The notes under the pieces were generated by a model, which was not told where the DNA came from, made no database searches, and was given only the letters and a program-made list of their open reading frames with translations. 30,359 bases of DNA from a virus. Shown one piece after another: positions 5,053-22,316 of the stretch (its first letter is position 1; every line of letters begins with the position of its first letter). The stretch spans positions 1 to 30,359 of the IMG/VR virus record IMGVR_UViG_3300032084_002699; one strand, written 5' to 3'. The translations under genes and the position numbers were made by a program.

Positions 5053-6045
5053 TTAGGCTAAAATGCCATTAATCTTGTTTAATATTCTTGTTAGCTCCTT
5101 CTCGTTCCCCTTTGCTCTAGTAAAAGAAGAACTTACCGCTACCTTTAATTCTTCTGGAAGCTTTGGAAGCTTGTCTTTAATCTGGCCAATAAGATCCATA
5201 GCGGCAGGGCTAAATTCTTCACCTTTTTTCTCGGCCTGTTTTTTAGCTCCTTTAAAATGCTTAAGAACATGATCCCTAACGACTCCCCAAGTTCCTTCCT
5301 TATGAAATTCAATCTCATAAGGCATATCAAAACGGTTTTTAGCAACATGAGAAGGACGTTCTTCTGTGTAGATCATTCTTAGACCATCAGCACCTTCAGC
5401 ATATTCTTTACCAGAACTTGTTTCAGCTCTAACTAAGAAATAGTTAGCAAAAAGAATAGCACTTACCCAATCTTCAAATATCCCTTTAACTTTTTTATGG
5501 AGTGCTGTCTCATAATGATCATAACTGGTTAGAGTCATTGCTTCTTCATGCTTAACTTTTGAAGAATGACAAAGAAGAACAACATTCATACCCTTTTGAT
5601 CTCTAAGAGGAATTAGATATTTGTCTCTAATATTTAAAAACATATTAGAAAGTTTTTCGTACCCTTTACCGTAACCACCAAAGGCAGTAGCAAGAGTTTT
5701 TCCTTTTTGATTTGGATCATTAAGAATGAATTGTTCAGCAATTTGCTCAAGACCATCAACAGTATCAAGAACTAAGGTTTTATAATCGTGGTCTTCCTTA
5801 AGTAAACTTTCAAGAATGTTCACAAGCCCTAATTGTTGTTCTGCTTCTGACTTTTTGCCGTCAACCTCCCAAGTTTTAATCTTAAATCGAGGAACATCAA
5901 GTTCATCGTTTTCTTCATTACCAACATAAACTGGGCTTGGAGACTCAGCAGCAAAGGTAGATTTACCTATACCATGTGGCGCATGCATCATAATTGCAAG
6001 CGGTTTCAGCTTGCGTCCTTTTTGAACCTTTTTAAGTAAGCTCAT
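5053..6045 (-). CDS. Sak4-like RecA-fold ATPase (AAA_24 family)
   Basis: 330-aa phage nucleotide-binding protein. Walker A APHGIGKST (22-30), Walker B TLVLDTVDG (90-97) and a sensor strand VVLLCHSSK (155-163) form one RecA-type core. The family (AAA_24, including phage Sak4) binds ssDNA with ATP and promotes strand annealing, often together with an SSB and a YqaJ or RecE-type exonuclease; both partners are in this window. The C-terminal 80 residues are Lys-rich and helical. The start ATG overlaps the stop of the 53-aa Cro-like gene (ATGA), and AAAGGAG lies within the end of that gene, so the two are translated together. Confidence 0.85.
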   Translation of the reverse strand: MSLLKKVQKGRKLKPLAIMMHAPHGIGKSTFAAESPSPVYVGNEENDELDVPRFKIKTWEVDGKKSEAEQQLGLVNILESLLKEDHDYKTLVLDTVDGLEQIAEQFILNDPNQKGKTLATAFGGYGKGYEKLSNMFLNIRDKYLIPLRDQKGMNVVLLCHSSKVKHEEAMTLTSYDHYETALHKKVKGIFEDWVSAILFANYFLVRAETSSGKEYAEGADGLRMIYTEERPSHVAKNRFDMPYEIEFHKEGTWGVVRDHVLKHFKGAKKQAEKKGEEFSPAAMDLIGQIKDKLPKLPEELKVAVSSSFTRAKGNEKELTRILNKINGILA

Positions 6046-6472: not shown

Positions 6473-7417
6473 ATGAAAAAAATTGATATGATTCAAAATT
6501 CTGATGATTGGTACAAAATGAGAAATAATTATCTTGGTGCTTCAGAATCCAATATAATTATGGGCCATGAAAAATTTATGACCGTTCTTGAGTTGTGGAA
6601 ACTTAAAACTGGTGAACCAAAAAAAGAAAATAAAGATCCTAACTTTATTCAAGCTAAAGGTCATAGGATTGAAGCAAAAATGCGTCCTACAATGGAAATG
6701 CTTTATGATACTGATATGGAACCAATTGTTGTTGTTTCTGAAGAGTATCCATTCTTAATGGCATCACTTGACGGTTACTCTGAAAGCGTTGGTTTCAATT
6801 GGGAGTGTAAGTATGTTGGTCAAGAGGATTATGAAAAAGTATCTAATCAAGAGATGCTTATGCACTATTACCCTCAGGTACAACATCAATTAATGCTTAC
6901 TGGAGCTCCATTCTGCGTTTTTACCGTTGCTGCTGATGTTCCTAAAGATAGTGCTGATTATAATCCTGACTGGCCATTTAAGTACGCTTATATGGAAGTT
7001 CAACCAGACCATGACTATATGAAAAATAAACTTCTTCCAAAGCTTGTGGAATTTTGGAATATGGTTGAAAATAAAATTAGTCCTGAAATTGGTGATAAAG
7101 ACGTTGTAGATCTAAGTGCAAACTCTAATCTAACAGATCTTCTTGGAGAATATCAAAGTGTAAAAGAAGCTGTTGATAGAGAAAAAGAGCTCAAGAAAGA
7201 GATTTTTAAATGTCTTGGTAAGGCCAAAAAAGCTGTTTGTAATGGTGTAAAAATCACTATTTCAAAATCTGCTGACAAAAAAGATCAGCCTGATCTTGAT
7301 GCTTACTTAAAAGAAAAAGGTATAACAAATGAAATTTTGGTAAAAGAGGGATTTACCAAAACTGTAAAGGGGCGTTCAAGCAAAAGGATTACGTTTCCCA
7401 AACCAAAATCCGCTTGA
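6473..7417 (+). CDS. YqaJ-type (lambda exonuclease family) recombination nuclease
   Basis: 314-aa 5'-3' double-strand exonuclease of the YqaJ/lambda Exo family, which trims one strand so that the annealing protein can pair the other. Seen: LGASESNIIM (21-30), GHRIEAKMRP (E67), LMASLDGYSE (D100), NWECKYV (E111, K113) and the YYPQVQHQLMLTG helix (Q135, Q137). The D-E-K catalytic triad and bridging glutamines are all present. A C-terminal extension of about 100 residues, Lys-rich, may bind DNA. The gene is transcribed away from the Sak4-like ATPase and SSB-like genes although they should act together. An intrinsic terminator follows at once. Confidence 0.9.
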   Translation: MKKIDMIQNSDDWYKMRNNYLGASESNIIMGHEKFMTVLELWKLKTGEPKKENKDPNFIQAKGHRIEAKMRPTMEMLYDTDMEPIVVVSEEYPFLMASLDGYSESVGFNWECKYVGQEDYEKVSNQEMLMHYYPQVQHQLMLTGAPFCVFTVAADVPKDSADYNPDWPFKYAYMEVQPDHDYMKNKLLPKLVEFWNMVENKISPEIGDKDVVDLSANSNLTDLLGEYQSVKEAVDREKELKKEIFKCLGKAKKAVCNGVKITISKSADKKDQPDLDAYLKEKGITNEILVKEGFTKTVKGRSSKRITFPKPKSA

Positions 7418-15416: not shown

Positions 15417-16822
15417 TAAATCTTACCCAAAGAAGATGAATCAATATCAATAAAATTAATAAAATCAATATTCATTCTAAATCCATCTTCTTGATCTAGT
15501 TCAAATTTTACATTTTTAACATAAAAAGCAGTATTTATTCTATTTAATGATTCTGCAAATGCATTTGCAATTTCTATAGGATAACCACGCCTTACAAGGA
15601 AATTTCTTTTTTGAGCATAAGTAGAATCTGATTTTATTTCACCGAGCTCATCCTGACTAAGATAAATTCTTATGGCCGTACCATTTCTTATTTTTGAAAA
15701 AAGAACAGGAAAAGTACCAGTTTGAAATTCGTTATCAACTTCTTCTGGTATCTCCATTTCAAACGTGGATAAACTTCCCTCTATTTGTTGCCTAGATAAT
15801 TCCTCATAAACGTCTTCGGCCATCGTTATCAATGTTTCTTTATCGTTTATATTAGGAACAGGGAAAGTAATATAATCAGCAACCTTTGGAGGATCTATCT
15901 TTTTTCCATCTTTATCAAGCTGGGCAATAGTTACTTCAGTATTACCAAACTCTGAAATAAAATCTTCACTTTTAGCCTCTTTTGGAATGTCTGCTGTTAT
16001 AACGGTTTTCTTTAAAAGGTTAGCAGAAGTAAGTCTGACATTATAATTCTTGGCCCTACCAAGCTTTCTTCTGAAGCTTAAATCCTTTATGTTACCGCCA
16101 TATATAAATTGCTTTATTTCTTTCTTTTCATAAATATTTCTAGGCTTAGTTATTACAAACTTATCAATTTCTATAAAACCAATAAGCCCAACCCTCCTTA
16201 AAATACTTTGCATTATATCCCAATAAGTTTCCTTTCTTTTTTGGTTCTTAACAGAAGTTGTGGGATTAAAATCAGGTGCTAATTTTGAAAGAGTAGGAAG
16301 ATCTTCACCAGATCTATTTACAACAATGATTTCTTCTGTTGATTTGAGCTCTTTTATAAGATCTTCCATGATTTGATCTATAGGCTTGGAAAGAGGTATA
16401 GGGCTAGTGTTTAGTCTTTTCTGATCAATAAAAAGAGAAGTAAAATCCCTCCCTTCTATCATAACGGTTCTGGTATCATCATTAAAATCAATACCACCCT
16501 CATCAGCAAAACCTTGAAAAATGATATTATCATCACTAGGTTCTATAAGATTTAAAGAGTTATTTCTTTTGAAAAGACCTTTTTTATCTTCCATATAAAC
16601 AGCTATACCAAGAGATCTTATGCATCTAGGATCAAACGGGAATGACTTATAATCAATTCTGGCCTTAAATGTATCTGCTTCAGTGTAATCATTTATATCA
16701 ACAGTTACACTTCTAGCTGATAATTGCATAACAGAAACTTGCTGAAGAACTTCAGAATTAGATCCAAAATCTTCCCAAATTACTCTAAGTGAAATAGCTG
16801 CTTGTGGATAATAAATACTCAT
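15416..16822 (-). CDS. Baseplate hub protein gpD/gp44-like
   Basis: 468 aa late-control-D type hub, the counterpart of T4 gp27 and Mu gp44. The N-terminus (SVTVDINDYTEADTFKARID) shows the hub's first tube-like barrel. The middle has DIMQSILRRVGLIGFIEIDK and FIYGGNIKDLSFRRKLGRAKNYNVRL, a strand-helix pattern common to gpD proteins. The protein forms a trimer that links tube and spike. Neighbours on both sides (LysM protein and spike) match the Mu order. The annotated start overlaps the upstream stop by four bases. Confidence 0.85.
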   Translation of the reverse strand: MSIYYPQAAISLRVIWEDFGSNSEVLQQVSVMQLSARSVTVDINDYTEADTFKARIDYKSFPFDPRCIRSLGIAVYMEDKKGLFKRNNSLNLIEPSDDNIIFQGFADEGGIDFNDDTRTVMIEGRDFTSLFIDQKRLNTSPIPLSKPIDQIMEDLIKELKSTEEIIVVNRSGEDLPTLSKLAPDFNPTTSVKNQKRKETYWDIMQSILRRVGLIGFIEIDKFVITKPRNIYEKKEIKQFIYGGNIKDLSFRRKLGRAKNYNVRLTSANLLKKTVITADIPKEAKSEDFISEFGNTEVTIAQLDKDGKKIDPPKVADYITFPVPNINDKETLITMAEDVYEELSRQQIEGSLSTFEMEIPEEVDNEFQTGTFPVLFSKIRNGTAIRIYLSQDELGEIKSDSTYAQKRNFLVRRGYPIEIANAFAESLNRINTAFYVKNVKFELDQEDGFRMNIDFINFIDIDSSSLGKI

Positions 16823-17946
16823 ATTCTAGGAATTTCAATCAATCTACCAATTTGCAGATCTGTATTAGTTAAATCGTTATAGTCATAAATTTCTTTCCAG
16901 TTTCCAGAATTTCCATAATATTCAACAGATATCTTTTGAAGAGTATCACCAGTTTTTACTAATCTTCTGGCCAAAGGAAGAGTATTAATAATATTTGAAA
17001 ATTGAGCAAAAAGCCTTTGAAGCAATGAGGTTAAGCTTGATGCTGCTGCAATACTTGAAGTCGTATATTTTCCATAATCATATCTACCAGCAATAGAAGT
17101 ACTTGGATCAAATGAAGCTAAAGATCCTAACTGTCTCTTATATCTTGATAGAACTTGCTGAGCATACTTTATCAATCCTTTTATTCTGTTAACCGATGAT
17201 TTTATATCTTGAACAGTCGTAAAGATAGCATCTACAAAATTTGTCACAGTTGCCAACACTTCTGCAACTTCACTTGTTACACCGTTTATAATATCAGCAA
17301 TTGAACGTGGTACAGAATCAGGAATAGTGCTTGAATTTAATTGAAATTCAGTAGCAAGAGCAATGAGCTCTTTATTTATTCCAAATGGAACTTCTTTTTT
17401 TCTTTGTAGGAAAATTGCATTTTTAGGAGCATTAAAACCAATAACGAAAAATGTTATTGAATAATTAATTCTTGAAAGTCTTTCTAAATCAAACTTTGTT
17501 TCTTCAATTATTGCGTATCTTTCAAACTCTCCAAGCTGCAATCTGACAACATTTCCACGAATCCTTACAGCATCAACTTCTTTCTGCATTTCTTCAGATA
17601 TGTTTTTTAGCTGAGGATTAGAAAACCTTTTATCTTTGAATGTTCCATTAATGGTTATAGGTAATTCTTCTGGCCCAAATACTTGAACAGATGGTTCAGA
17701 GTATCCAGAATAATACTCTTTTTTCATCCTTTGTTTACCGCCAAAAGAAAACGGTATCTTAGGCATCCAGTTACCAGCAAATACTATTTTGTCACCACTA
17801 GCACCAGTCGGAAGAATCTCTTCTATTTTAAAACCATCAGGAAAATCAGGAGCATCAAAATCAGCATTAACCGTTTGTTCAAACGGGTTTCTAATCTTAT
17901 TGGTAATGTCATTTACAGATCCTTGGAATCCGTTAAGTAAAGCCAT
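16819..17946 (-). CDS. LysM baseplate protein (Mu gp43-like position)
   Basis: 375 aa. The N-terminal half contains a beta domain (LPITINGTFKDKRFSNPQ, RGNVVRLQLGEFERYAIIEE) as in phage tail proteins between tape measure and hub. The C-terminal 50 residues form a LysM-type fold: RLVKTGDTLQKISVEYYG, NWKEIYDYNDL, LQIGRLIEIPRI. In myophages LysM baseplate proteins cement the hub region. The start overlaps the tape measure stop (17946) by one base. Confidence 0.82.
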   Translation of the reverse strand: MALLNGFQGSVNDITNKIRNPFEQTVNADFDAPDFPDGFKIEEILPTGASGDKIVFAGNWMPKIPFSFGGKQRMKKEYYSGYSEPSVQVFGPEELPITINGTFKDKRFSNPQLKNISEEMQKEVDAVRIRGNVVRLQLGEFERYAIIEETKFDLERLSRINYSITFFVIGFNAPKNAIFLQRKKEVPFGINKELIALATEFQLNSSTIPDSVPRSIADIINGVTSEVAEVLATVTNFVDAIFTTVQDIKSSVNRIKGLIKYAQQVLSRYKRQLGSLASFDPSTSIAGRYDYGKYTTSSIAAASSLTSLLQRLFAQFSNIINTLPLARRLVKTGDTLQKISVEYYGNSGNWKEIYDYNDLTNTDLQIGRLIEIPRI

Positions 17947-19877
17947 TAGATAGTCCCTGCCTGTTGAGCTGCTGTTTTAATACTTCTTGTGGATCTCCTA
18001 TTTTGACTTGCTTTTTCAAGCTGGTCTTGAATAGTAAAAGCAATTCTATCTGGTTGAAGAACCTCTTTAAAAGCATTGTTCATGGTAACATCATAATTAT
18101 TAACCTGTTGAACAACTTTTGCATTTTCAACACCTTCAGGCCCTAATGTAGGAGTTCTAAATCTATCAACAGTTTTCATAAACTCTTCAGCACCAGCACC
18201 CATTGCTTCTGAAAAACTATTTTCCATTCCATCAAAAAGCTTTCCATTTAGAAGATTTCCAGCAGAAAAATTCTCCAATAGAGTTGCGATATTAGTAACT
18301 AAAGAAGCAAGAAGAACAGTTATTCCAGCTATTATTCCTCTAAAGGCTGCATATAGTTCTAAAAACTTATCAGAAAGCGTACCTATGATATCGGTAACAA
18401 GCTTTAATCCATCTTTAAATAAATCAAGGAAAAATGTCCCTTCAGTAAATATGCTAAAAAGTTCCTCAAAACCTGTTATCATATCCATAATAGGAGCTAT
18501 AAATATTGAAAATGATCTCTTTAATGAAGTGAACATATCAATAATACTGGCCATATTATTCCCAAGCCACTCAAGAGCAGAAAGCTTACCTCTATCAAGA
18601 GCTCTGGAAAGACCTATAATTGGAATAAGAAGAATTGAAAACAATCCTGCCATTCTTCCTACGGTTAACATGACAGCTTTTAAAACACCTCCAAAAGTAG
18701 ATATCGGACCAACTTTAAATATGCTCATAAGATTTTTAAGAGCTCCACCAACAAAAGGTATTCTCATTATAAAATCAAAAACTCCCTGTAATGGTTTAAC
18801 TATTTTTGATAAATATGGAACCGTACTAAGAGCATGCATAATTTCCTGAAAGTGAGTAAGTGTAATTATGAGACTAACTATTCCAGCACTGGCGGCAATA
18901 TCACCAGCTAAACCATCAAGAGTCATCATGTTTAAAAGCATCTCTCTAGGGCTATCAATCATTGGCTTTATAAATCTTGCCATTGCCTCAACCATTTCTC
19001 TTCCTTGTTTATCGACAAATTTGATAAACATTTGAAATACCTCAACGATCAAAGGCATAAGAACATCACCAAGAGGTCTTAAGACAGAGTTAAAGGATCT
19101 AAATAAATCAGATGCAGATTGCATTACTCCGCTAAGAGTGTTTGCCCTCATCTCAAGTATTTTTGAGTTATTGGCAAATTTTGATAATGAATCATTTAAA
19201 ATATTAAATCTTTGAGCTGCTTTTAAGGCATTAAACCCTTTAGCATCTTTGATCCCTGCTTGCTGAAATGGTTCTGGTGCTTCTGTGACAAGTCTTCTAA
19301 AAAGAGTATCACCCATTGAAGCAGATCCTTCTATGGCCCTAAGAAGTTGACCTTGAACAAGTGAAGGATCTATACCTAAATTGGGAGCAGATTTAAGTAA
19401 ATTTCTGGACATTTTTCTAGCTGAACTAAAATCATCACCAGCCAAACCTTTTGGAATAAGCATAGCACTTAAAGTTTTAGTCATTTGCATTAACTCATCT
19501 GCTGGTAATCCAAATGTTCTTGCATCTTTTGCTATGTCACCCATAATTTTACGAGATGACATCATTTGTTCATTTATACTTCCAATCGTTCCAGAAAGAT
19601 GGGCAACATTAGAATCAATAATCTGAACAAAAGAAAGTTGAGATTGAGTGAATTTATCACTCATACCAATAGCATTTCCCAAAACGCCCAGTATTCCGGC
19701 ACTGGCACCAGTAAAATTAGCAATAAAACCAACACCAAGAGCCCTTACAGATCCTAAAGCGTTTTGTACGGTTGAATTTAAGCTATCTACCTTTCCTTCA
19801 AGCTTGTCTACACCTAAAATAGCTCCAGCAACGTCAAACTTAAATTCTGATACTACTGTAAACGCATTTATTGCCAT
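17946..19877 (-). CDS. Tail tape measure protein
   Basis: 643 aa, the longest tail gene apart from the exported fibre. It is helical, with hydrophobic stretches typical of tape measures (GDIAASAGIVSLIITLTHF, RMAGLFSILLIPIIGLSR, GIIAGITVLLASLVTNIATL). The N-terminal 300 residues include a helix ending SSRKIMGDIAKDARTFGLP, then ELMQMTKTLSAML and APNLGIDPSLVQGQLLRAIEG, recurrent in Mu-like tape measures. It sets tail length (about 1.5 angstrom per residue gives a tail near 95 nm) and is ejected at infection. Its ATG overlaps the stop of the frameshifted chaperone (TAATG). Confidence 0.9.
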   Translation of the reverse strand: MAINAFTVVSEFKFDVAGAILGVDKLEGKVDSLNSTVQNALGSVRALGVGFIANFTGASAGILGVLGNAIGMSDKFTQSQLSFVQIIDSNVAHLSGTIGSINEQMMSSRKIMGDIAKDARTFGLPADELMQMTKTLSAMLIPKGLAGDDFSSARKMSRNLLKSAPNLGIDPSLVQGQLLRAIEGSASMGDTLFRRLVTEAPEPFQQAGIKDAKGFNALKAAQRFNILNDSLSKFANNSKILEMRANTLSGVMQSASDLFRSFNSVLRPLGDVLMPLIVEVFQMFIKFVDKQGREMVEAMARFIKPMIDSPREMLLNMMTLDGLAGDIAASAGIVSLIITLTHFQEIMHALSTVPYLSKIVKPLQGVFDFIMRIPFVGGALKNLMSIFKVGPISTFGGVLKAVMLTVGRMAGLFSILLIPIIGLSRALDRGKLSALEWLGNNMASIIDMFTSLKRSFSIFIAPIMDMITGFEELFSIFTEGTFFLDLFKDGLKLVTDIIGTLSDKFLELYAAFRGIIAGITVLLASLVTNIATLLENFSAGNLLNGKLFDGMENSFSEAMGAGAEEFMKTVDRFRTPTLGPEGVENAKVVQQVNNYDVTMNNAFKEVLQPDRIAFTIQDQLEKASQNRRSTRSIKTAAQQAGTI

Positions 19878-20361
19878 TAAGACTTCCCAGATTCATCTGT
19901 TAATATTTCATTCAGTCTATCACAGTATATCTTAAATTCGGCAAGAGTCATAGATTCAGCCTCTTGCCTAGAAATATTAGAATATCTTTGAACCCAAGCT
20001 AGCTGCCTTATAAAGTTGTATGCTCTGGGGTTAAGTCTAAGTTTCCCTCGCCATCATCCACCATCATTTTAATAGCTTTTGAAACCTGACCATATTCTTT
20101 GAAAGTAAACAGCTTTTTAAGGTCTTGCTTTTCTTGAAGTGTAAGCTTTTTCTTATCAACTTGAACCAAAAGAAGTTTAATCATTTCTTTTTGAAAAAGG
20201 ACTGATAAATGTGCTTCATTTTCTGGACCAGCTTCTTTTCCTGCTATTTTTGTAGCATGTTCAGTATCACCAATTTCAGGATCTCTTAAGTAAATAACTT
20301 TGCCTGTACCTAAAGTGAATTTTGCTACTTGAACTTTTTCATTTTTCTTTGAATCAACCAT
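19877..20361 (-). CDS. Tail assembly chaperone frameshift fusion (gpGT-like)
   Basis: A -1 ribosomal frameshift at the heptamer G GGA AAC (minus strand, 20047-20041), in the exact X-XXY-YYZ phase of the chaperone frame, leads into a 54-codon open frame that has no start of its own. The extension begins LRLNPRAYNFIRQLAWVQRY and continues SNISRQEAESMTLAEFKIYC, DRLNEILTDESGKS, giving a fusion of 161 aa (107 + 54). The extension stops with TAA overlapping the tape measure ATG. In tailed phages the G and G-T proteins wrap the tape measure, and the frameshift sets their ratio. Gene position, slippery site, frame and stop position all agree. Confidence 0.85.
20008..20361 (-). CDS. Tail assembly chaperone, unshifted product (gpG-like)
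   Basis: 117 aa, preceded by AGGAG. The sequence (VAKFTLGTGKVIYLRDPEIG, EMIKLLLVQVDKKKLTLQE, LFTFKEYGQVSKAIKMM) is the small alpha/beta protein expected between tube and tape measure genes in myophages, equivalent to lambda gpG and Mu gp41. It binds the tape measure during assembly and is absent from mature virions. Ten residues after the slippery site it stops at TAA; the -1 product continues, see the fusion entry. Confidence 0.85.
   Translation of the reverse strand: MVDSKKNEKVQVAKFTLGTGKVIYLRDPEIGDTEHATKIAGKEAGPENEAHLSVLFQKEMIKLLLVQVDKKKLTLQEKQDLKKLFTFKEYGQVSKAIKMMVDDGEGNLDLTPEHTTL
20041..20047 (-). other. Slippery heptamer GGGAAAC for -1 frameshift
   Basis: On the minus strand the bases read GGGAAAC, aligned with the chaperone frame as G GGA AAC, that is codons GGA (20046-20044) and AAC (20043-20041). 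After slipping, tRNAs pair with GGG and AAA and reading resumes at CTT. I did not identify a clear downstream pseudoknot by eye. Confidence 0.85.
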
Positions 20362-20437: not shown

Positions 20438-20860
20438 TTATAAACCAACCCTTCCAGAAGCCTGAAAGTTAATGGTTTTTGTTACCTTTTCATTTAGGCC
20501 GGGCTTTGTCTTAGAAAGACTAAACTGACAATCAAAGTAAACATAACTTTTACTTGTTCCATCAGGATAAAACTCGGTATCAATAAAGGTATCTTCAGTT
20601 ACACCAATTCCATTTAAGTTATTAGCAACTAGAGCATCAATAAACTCTTCAATGGTTGCATTTTTAACTTCCATATCAAATTGACCTGACCAACCTTCAA
20701 TAGACTGATCTCCTTCTGGAATAGGAGCTCCTACATAGAAAGATTTTTGAAAATTTGAATCTTGGTTAATTTGAACATTTGTAATAGTGTCAATGACAAC
20801 AGGTGCGCCATCTCTATACATTTCAAATCTTGCCTGATGGCCTCTTATACTTGCTGGCAT
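20438..20860 (-). CDS. Tail tube protein
   Basis: 140 aa, following the sheath gene as in all Mu- and P2-like myophages. The N-terminus (MPASIRGHQARFEMYRDGAP) and the strands SIEGWSGQFDMEVKNATIEE, SYVYFDCQFSLSK, VTKTINFQASGRVGL match the beta-barrel tube protein with its long loop. It polymerises into hexamer rings inside the sheath. AAGGAG lies before the ATG. A strong terminator follows, as expected for an abundant product. Confidence 0.87.
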   Translation of the reverse strand: MPASIRGHQARFEMYRDGAPVVIDTITNVQINQDSNFQKSFYVGAPIPEGDQSIEGWSGQFDMEVKNATIEEFIDALVANNLNGIGVTEDTFIDTEFYPDGTSKSYVYFDCQFSLSKTKPGLNEKVTKTINFQASGRVGL

Positions 20861-20864
20861 AGTC

Positions 20865-22316
20865 TTATTCTCCTTCTAGCACAACAACAGATTCACCGAT
20901 CTCAGCTTTAAGAACAATAAACCTCATGCTGCTGTAAATTCTTTGTTTGTAATCAATGAAAAACTTACCTTCGGCAAGAGTGTCATCAGTATTGGGCCCA
21001 TCAATATCAACACTTTTTGCAAGACCACCTTGAACTTCACTATCCTTAGGAAGAACACCCAGATCTTCTTGTTGCCTAATAAATCTGAGGATTGCAGCCT
21101 TAGCAGCAGTTCTCTCAGTAGCTCTGTTAGGAGCATTTTGATAATTTTTAAGAAACCTACCGATACTATCAGTAAGAAAATCAGCCATTCTTCTTCTCAG
21201 AATAGTCAGCTTAGAACTATTTGCAACCTGAGTTACAATAGCAGACTTCAGCTTGAATCCGATATCATTATCAAACTCAAAAGCACTTACACCAGCTTCT
21301 TTAAGAGCGATATAATCAGTTCTGGTAAGTTCCTTCTTAAGTCCAGTAATACCAAAAAGAAGACCAGAATTAGCAGCATAGGCAAGATCAACATTTGGAG
21401 CAACTTGACTGAAAAGAGAAGCAATCCATGCAGCAGGAGAAGTATAAACTGACTCACCATTGATTGTTGTTTGAACCCAGTTTGAAGCATAAATAATCCT
21501 TCCGTCAGTATCTCTTAAAAGAGCAACATCAGTTTCATTATCTGCTACAGTATCTTCTTCCTCTTCAGAAAGAATAACCATTTTATCCTGAGTGGTTCCA
21601 GCGTGAGTTTTTAGATACCCGTTTCTAGTCTGGTTGTACTCATCTAAGAAAAGCACATTCCCAGCACCTTCAACAGCAGCTTTTGCAATTGCATCTTGAT
21701 AATCAGTATCAGCAAGAGTCCCGTCAGATCCAGTAGCTAATGCTGTAGAAACAGTATTAACAGGCTCACTTGTAGCATCAAGAACAGTTACATCAATAAG
21801 TTTTGAATCCTTAAAAACCTTATCAGATACAACATTTCCAATTTCAATATTGTCATAAATTTCATCTGGAAAAAATTCAGTAGCACCTTCACTTGTATCT
21901 TGGATAGTATATTTCTTACCCCCAACAGATCCGGCCTCAACAGTAACTTTAATACTGTTCCCATAAACACCCTTGTATTTAGCATCAAATTTGATACTTG
22001 GAACAGTGGCATTATTTATTGATAAAGTTCCCAAAACAGCATCATCAGCAAGAACTCTGATGATCTTTAAAATTGAAAACTTTTTATTTTTTAATTGGAT
22101 ATTTCCAAGGTAATCAGACTTTCCATATCTCTCATGGAAATCTTTAATACCAGAAATTCTGGTAAGAGCTGTTGAACCTCTTTGCAGCTGAGCAATCATA
22201 ACAGCAACACCCGTTCCAACGCCTTGTACATTTGGTGATGGTGCTTGTTCATCAACTACGATTCCATCAACTTCATCGTATTGTAATGGATTATTTGTTC
22301 TAAAGATTGAGCCCAT
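20865..22316 (-). CDS. Contractile tail sheath protein
   Basis: 483 aa. The N-terminus (VDEQAPSPNVQGVGTGVAVM, IAQLQRGSTALTRISGIKDF) and the C-terminal part (FIDYKQRIYSSMRFIVLKAE, IGESVVVLEGE) are typical of the phage sheath superfamily, with conserved N- and C-terminal arms and a variable middle. It makes the outer contractile cylinder. TTAGGAG is placed before the ATG. Length is normal for this family (about 390-660 aa). Confidence 0.95.
   Translation of the reverse strand: MGSIFRTNNPLQYDEVDGIVVDEQAPSPNVQGVGTGVAVMIAQLQRGSTALTRISGIKDFHERYGKSDYLGNIQLKNKKFSILKIIRVLADDAVLGTLSINNATVPSIKFDAKYKGVYGNSIKVTVEAGSVGGKKYTIQDTSEGATEFFPDEIYDNIEIGNVVSDKVFKDSKLIDVTVLDATSEPVNTVSTALATGSDGTLADTDYQDAIAKAAVEGAGNVLFLDEYNQTRNGYLKTHAGTTQDKMVILSEEEEDTVADNETDVALLRDTDGRIIYASNWVQTTINGESVYTSPAAWIASLFSQVAPNVDLAYAANSGLLFGITGLKKELTRTDYIALKEAGVSAFEFDNDIGFKLKSAIVTQVANSSKLTILRRRMADFLTDSIGRFLKNYQNAPNRATERTAAKAAILRFIRQQEDLGVLPKDSEVQGGLAKSVDIDGPNTDDTLAEGKFFIDYKQRIYSSMRFIVLKAEIGESVVVLEGE

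Follow-up and report, generated by a model that had tools for sequence, protein, structure and literature searches.

In phage lambda, the abundant tail chaperone gpG and its rare frameshifted form gpGT both bind the tape measure protein, and gpGT binds the major tail subunit as well, through its T domain (PMC5009743). Low-level frameshifting without stimulators is known in tailed phages (PMC5009743). On mammalian ribosomes, G_GGA_AAC is listed among the shiftiest heptamers, whereas in E. coli a high tendency to shift is described for G_GGA_AAG (PMC5009743). The haloarchaeal virus HCTV-1 is reported to use G_GGA_AAC (PMC5009743), and hence this heptamer occurs in prokaryotic viruses. Here, we describe a putative tail assembly chaperone gene in IMG/VR virus record IMGVR_UViG_3300032084_002699, which we analysed over its full length of 30,359 bases (hereafter the window; all coordinates refer to it, on the minus strand unless stated otherwise). 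This gene very probably contains a -1 programmed ribosomal frameshift of the lambda G/GT type. The device itself is known and widespread among tailed phages; what is new is its occurrence in a group without a cultured close relative.

The 0-frame open reading frame (ORF) of the short form (20008..20361) runs from ATG to TAA and encodes 117 amino acids. Within it, GGGAAAC (20047-20041) is read as GAG GGA AAC, i.e. G GGA AAC in the phase of the 0 frame, with exactly 10 codons separating its AAC from the stop TAA (20008-20010). The -1 frame is open from stop to stop for 58 codons (20053-19880). The 54 of these that follow the heptamer make up the extension (19880..20041; LRLNPRAYNFIRQLAWVQRYSNISRQEAESMTLAEFKIYCDRLNEILTDESGKS), which terminates at a TAA (19879-19877) that overlaps the tape measure ATG by a single base, 19877. 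A -1 fusion would thereby comprise 161 amino acids. An earlier note on this DNA had placed the heptamer in phase ten codons ahead of the chaperone stop, followed by 54 open -1 codons up to a TAA overlapping the tape measure ATG, and all of this agrees to the base; translation also returns the predicted sizes of 117 and 161 amino acids for the two putative products. The same note held that the extension has no start codon of its own. This is correct for GTG and TTG, which do not occur in the window's -1 frame, but not for ATG, of which there is one (19951), inside the extension domain and yielding only the last 24 residues. ORF calling based on start codons misses this 54-residue domain. The length of the -1 opening is by itself weak evidence, as many neighbouring genes also overlap in the -1 frame, and it is the comparison with related loci that carries the claim.

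Sheath or chaperone queries alone reached few relatives, and the useful anchor was a profile of the tube-like protein encoded at 20438..20860. Searching IMG/VR with this profile gave 42 close loci, one of which ends before the gene; after removal of identical and near-identical copies, 35 distinct loci remained, on contigs from many metagenomes. Neither the fused protein nor the tube protein had a match among 50,697 phage records. Scanning bacterial and archaeal genomes with the tube profile gave no confirmed relative.

In every one of the 35 distinct loci, the ORF at the chaperone position overlaps a downstream extension whose frame is invariably -1. Each locus also has an in-phase slip motif, 8-19 codons ahead of the 0-frame stop. 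According to the earlier note, relatives without the heptamer, or with an interrupted -1 frame, would speak against a frameshift; in all 35 the -1 frame is open and a slip motif is present in phase, with variation in the letters of the heptamer. The motifs are GGGAAAG (11 loci), GGGAAAC (9), GGGGGAG (5), CCCAAAG (5), AAAAAAG (2), GGGGGAA (1), GGGGGCA (1) and TTTTTTG (1), where loci with more than one candidate were assigned one by position, a few of these assignments being a matter of judgement. The two commonest are thus G_GGA_AAG and G_GGA_AAC, and the nearest relative (L029) has the former in place of the window's GGGAAAC.

With the window included, 29 of the 36 genes have a strict X XXY YYZ heptamer in the correct phase within the overlap, against 4.0 genes expected from the rate elsewhere in the same genes (17 in 3187 codon positions, 0.53%). 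When these overlaps are read in the remaining two phases, strict heptamers are found in only 3 and 4 genes. Such a restriction is demanded by tRNA re-pairing but not by slippage of a polymerase, which makes it extremely unlikely that the slippage at this site is transcriptional rather than ribosomal. The homopolymer-rich sites of a few relatives (AAAAAAG, TTTTTTG) could in principle permit polymerase slippage; the window's GGGAAAC and the GGGAAAG or CCCAAAG of most relatives, however, hold runs of just three bases.

The extension might instead be a small gene in its own right, translated by re-initiation or internal initiation without any fusion. The ATG at 19951 could be taken to favour this, as could the fact that 9 of 35 relatives have some kind of start codon ahead of the conserved core of the extension. 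In the other 26, however, there is no ATG, GTG or TTG upstream of the core, and initiation at the window's sole -1 ATG, within the domain, would yield a peptide of 24 residues. A separate gene also leaves the in-phase slip motif of every relative unexplained, and we regard it as very unlikely.

Beyond the 0-frame stop, the ratio of nonsynonymous to synonymous polymorphism (pN/pS) in the -1 frame was 0.26-0.43 in all 11 pairs tested, close to that of the 0-frame part; these values are rough, since many of the pairs have nearly saturated synonymous sites. They show that the extension, open and conserved across the group, is under purifying selection at the protein level. This also bears on the idea that a continuous chaperone gene has decayed, or been split by a one-base assembly error in the contig. 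An indel of one base would likewise shift a conserved C-terminus to another frame, but the same -1 arrangement recurs in 35 distinct contigs, with a slip motif at the junction each time and an extension under purifying selection, so that such an error or decay is almost certainly not the cause. The earlier note's proposal of a -1 frameshift in this gene thus has strong support from the comparison, through the 35 relatives, the phase-restricted motif and the selection on the extension.

We also counted changes of the slip site on a tree built from the tube protein and the N-terminal part of the chaperone, with the slip region excluded. This gave at least 20 changes of slip sequence (at least 19 with the five-G sites pooled) and 0 changes of frame; several branches are weakly supported, making the count approximate. 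As judged from these sequences, the conserved feature is the capacity to slip by -1 and not one particular sequence. With at least 19 replacements of the slip sequence, and with the frame and predicted products kept throughout, the group forms a natural series that could be used to study how slip sites evolve. The arrangement also extends to distant relatives of the tube protein (25-35% identity; L071-L108), in which the -1 overlap is present in all 29 distinct parsable loci and a slip motif in 28 of them. There, the motif is mostly AAAAAAC or AAAAAAG, lies 0-1 codon ahead of the stop, and is followed by an extension with a different motif.

The label of tail chaperone rests on gene order, the predicted fold and a family match in one relative. 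The gene immediately precedes that of the tape measure protein and follows the tube and sheath genes, in the order sheath, tube, chaperone-position gene, tape measure, with the tube identified by position and a weak match to phrog_10528. Separate AlphaFold runs gave confident models of both the 117-residue form (predicted local distance difference test score, pLDDT, 85) and the extension, which is modelled as three helices (pLDDT 89). In the PDB, the short form best matches 2ob9, the tail assembly chaperone of HK97 (probability 0.87, E-value 0.34, template modelling score 0.52), all other PDB structure matches having a probability of 0.15 or lower, and several of its matches in the BFVD viral library bear the name tail assembly chaperone. 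We consider this moderate, not decisive, support for a chaperone fold. One relative's fusion clears the cut-off of Pfam family PF10109 (Phage_TAC_7; 25.8 vs 25 bits), with the best-matching stretch in its -1 extension, whereas its 0-frame part alone scores 13.3 bits and falls under the cut-off. The window protein itself had no match to PF10109, a structure search with the extension model gave nothing informative, and profile searching against PDB sequences returned weak unrelated matches only. On gene order, the HK97-like predicted fold and the Phage_TAC_7 match in one fused relative, the gene is very probably a tail chaperone, as the earlier note had proposed.

Several observations weigh against a programmed frameshift in a chaperone gene. 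The fold matches fall below strict E-value thresholds, and the window protein had no family match in Pfam or PHROG. Seven relatives have GGGGG-type sites (GGGGGAG, GGGGGAA or GGGGGCA), which do not conform to X XXY YYZ; the GGGGGAA class is reported by PRFect to be frequent among the annotated frameshift sites of actinophages (PMC10885494). Predicted RNA structure 3' of the site in the window is no more stable than in shuffled sequence (z 1.11 for 80 nucleotides and -0.45 for 70 nucleotides; pseudoknots were outside this test), and there is no Shine-Dalgarno-like stimulator upstream of it. Lacking both, the site could frameshift with low efficiency.

Nor was any stimulatory element common to the group seen, whether a conserved 3' structure (pseudoknots again excepted) or a 5' Shine-Dalgarno motif; strong local folds and Shine-Dalgarno-like motifs occur in scattered loci only. 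Seven relatives (L036, L045, L046, L047, L062, L063 and L070), but not the window, have GGAGG-like motifs that precede the slip site by 14-20 bases and are possible Shine-Dalgarno stimulators. In two others (L041 and L043), a very stable hairpin is predicted directly downstream of CCCAAAG (z about -4), and is a candidate for a lineage-specific stimulator.

If the frameshift operates as in lambda, most ribosomes would read the 117-residue chaperone through to the TAA at 20008-20010. At G GGA AAC, a minority would move back by one base, their tRNAs pairing anew with GGG AAA, and read on for 54 codons to give the fusion of chaperone and extension. The slippage itself, its rate and the 161-residue product are inferred. 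By analogy with gpG and gpGT, the common part of the two forms would coat the tape measure protein, and recruitment of tube subunits would fall to the rare helical domain at the C-terminus; these presumed binding partners are taken from lambda.

The short form may also have a C-terminus of its own. The 0-frame tail after the heptamer (LDLTPEHTTL; 20011..20040), dropped from the long form, is predicted to form a beta strand at residues 113-116 in the AlphaFold model. An E-x-V-like motif recurs in the equivalent position across the 35 loci, with E113 in at least 90% of the rows. It is possible, if somewhat doubtful, that these roughly 10 residues unique to the short form are themselves under selection, the E-x-V-like strand recurring in most relatives. 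If so, the frameshift would swap functional C-termini, a sheet-completing strand for a helical tube-recruiting domain, and not merely add a domain.

The neighbouring genes fit a contractile tail. The predicted tape measure protein (17946..19877; 643 amino acids) matches phrog_1272 with an E-value of 2e-7. The tube-like protein (140 amino acids) matches phrog_12993 (E-value 9e-18), annotated in PHROGs as function unknown, and phrog_10528, 'major tail protein' (E-value 0.04), and its gene follows that of the predicted tail sheath protein (20865..22316; 483 amino acids; phrog_23, E-value 6e-17; Pfam sheath domains below cut-off). Baseplate-type proteins are encoded further downstream and head proteins further upstream of the tail genes. 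From these genes, we take the window to be part of a contractile-tailed phage genome. Going by these gene assignments, the virus is an uncultivated contractile-tailed phage from environmental DNA, its tail sheath gene showing the contractile tail.

Directly downstream of the tape measure gene, a protein with a C-terminal LysM domain (16819-17946) is likely a baseplate or tail-hub component. Elsewhere in the window, a RecE-like exonuclease gene (6473-7417, plus strand) stands amid minus-strand genes and adjoins a gene for a Sak4-like annealing protein (5053-6045, minus strand); the two are probably a recombination pair.

Tail-chaperone frameshifting has been described in several groups of tailed viruses, and the locus studied here extends this conserved device to contractile-tailed phages without a match among the phage records searched. 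Like lambda gpG/gpGT (PMC5009743), it combines a predicted -1 shift late in a chaperone gene that precedes the tape measure gene with what would be a short abundant and a long rare chaperone, and has no evident stimulatory structure. Unlike lambda, the tail is contractile, the window's slip site ends in AAC, and no sequence relative is detectable among those phage records, with the extension included. The E/E+E' proteins of phage P2 and gp41 of phage Mu (PF10109, Phage_TAC_7) likewise belong to contractile tails, with a chaperone frameshift ahead of the tape measure gene. The fusion of one relative clears the cut-off of this family, while the window protein does not match it; in Mu, moreover, -2 frameshifting is reported (PMC5009743), whereas the predicted shift in the window and its relatives is always -1. 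The haloarchaeal tailed viruses HCTV-1, -2 and -5 (PMC5009743) are archaeal siphoviruses, and the likeness here is one of motif, with no claim of kinship; the G_GGA_AAC of HCTV-1 is also among the commonest motifs in the window's group. Finally, the GGGGGAA 'fivetwo' sites of the SEA-PHAGES actinophages (PRFect, PMC10885494) belong to the same slip-motif class as those of the seven five-G relatives; they come from phages of Actinobacteria and, like the sites described here, are annotated or predicted.
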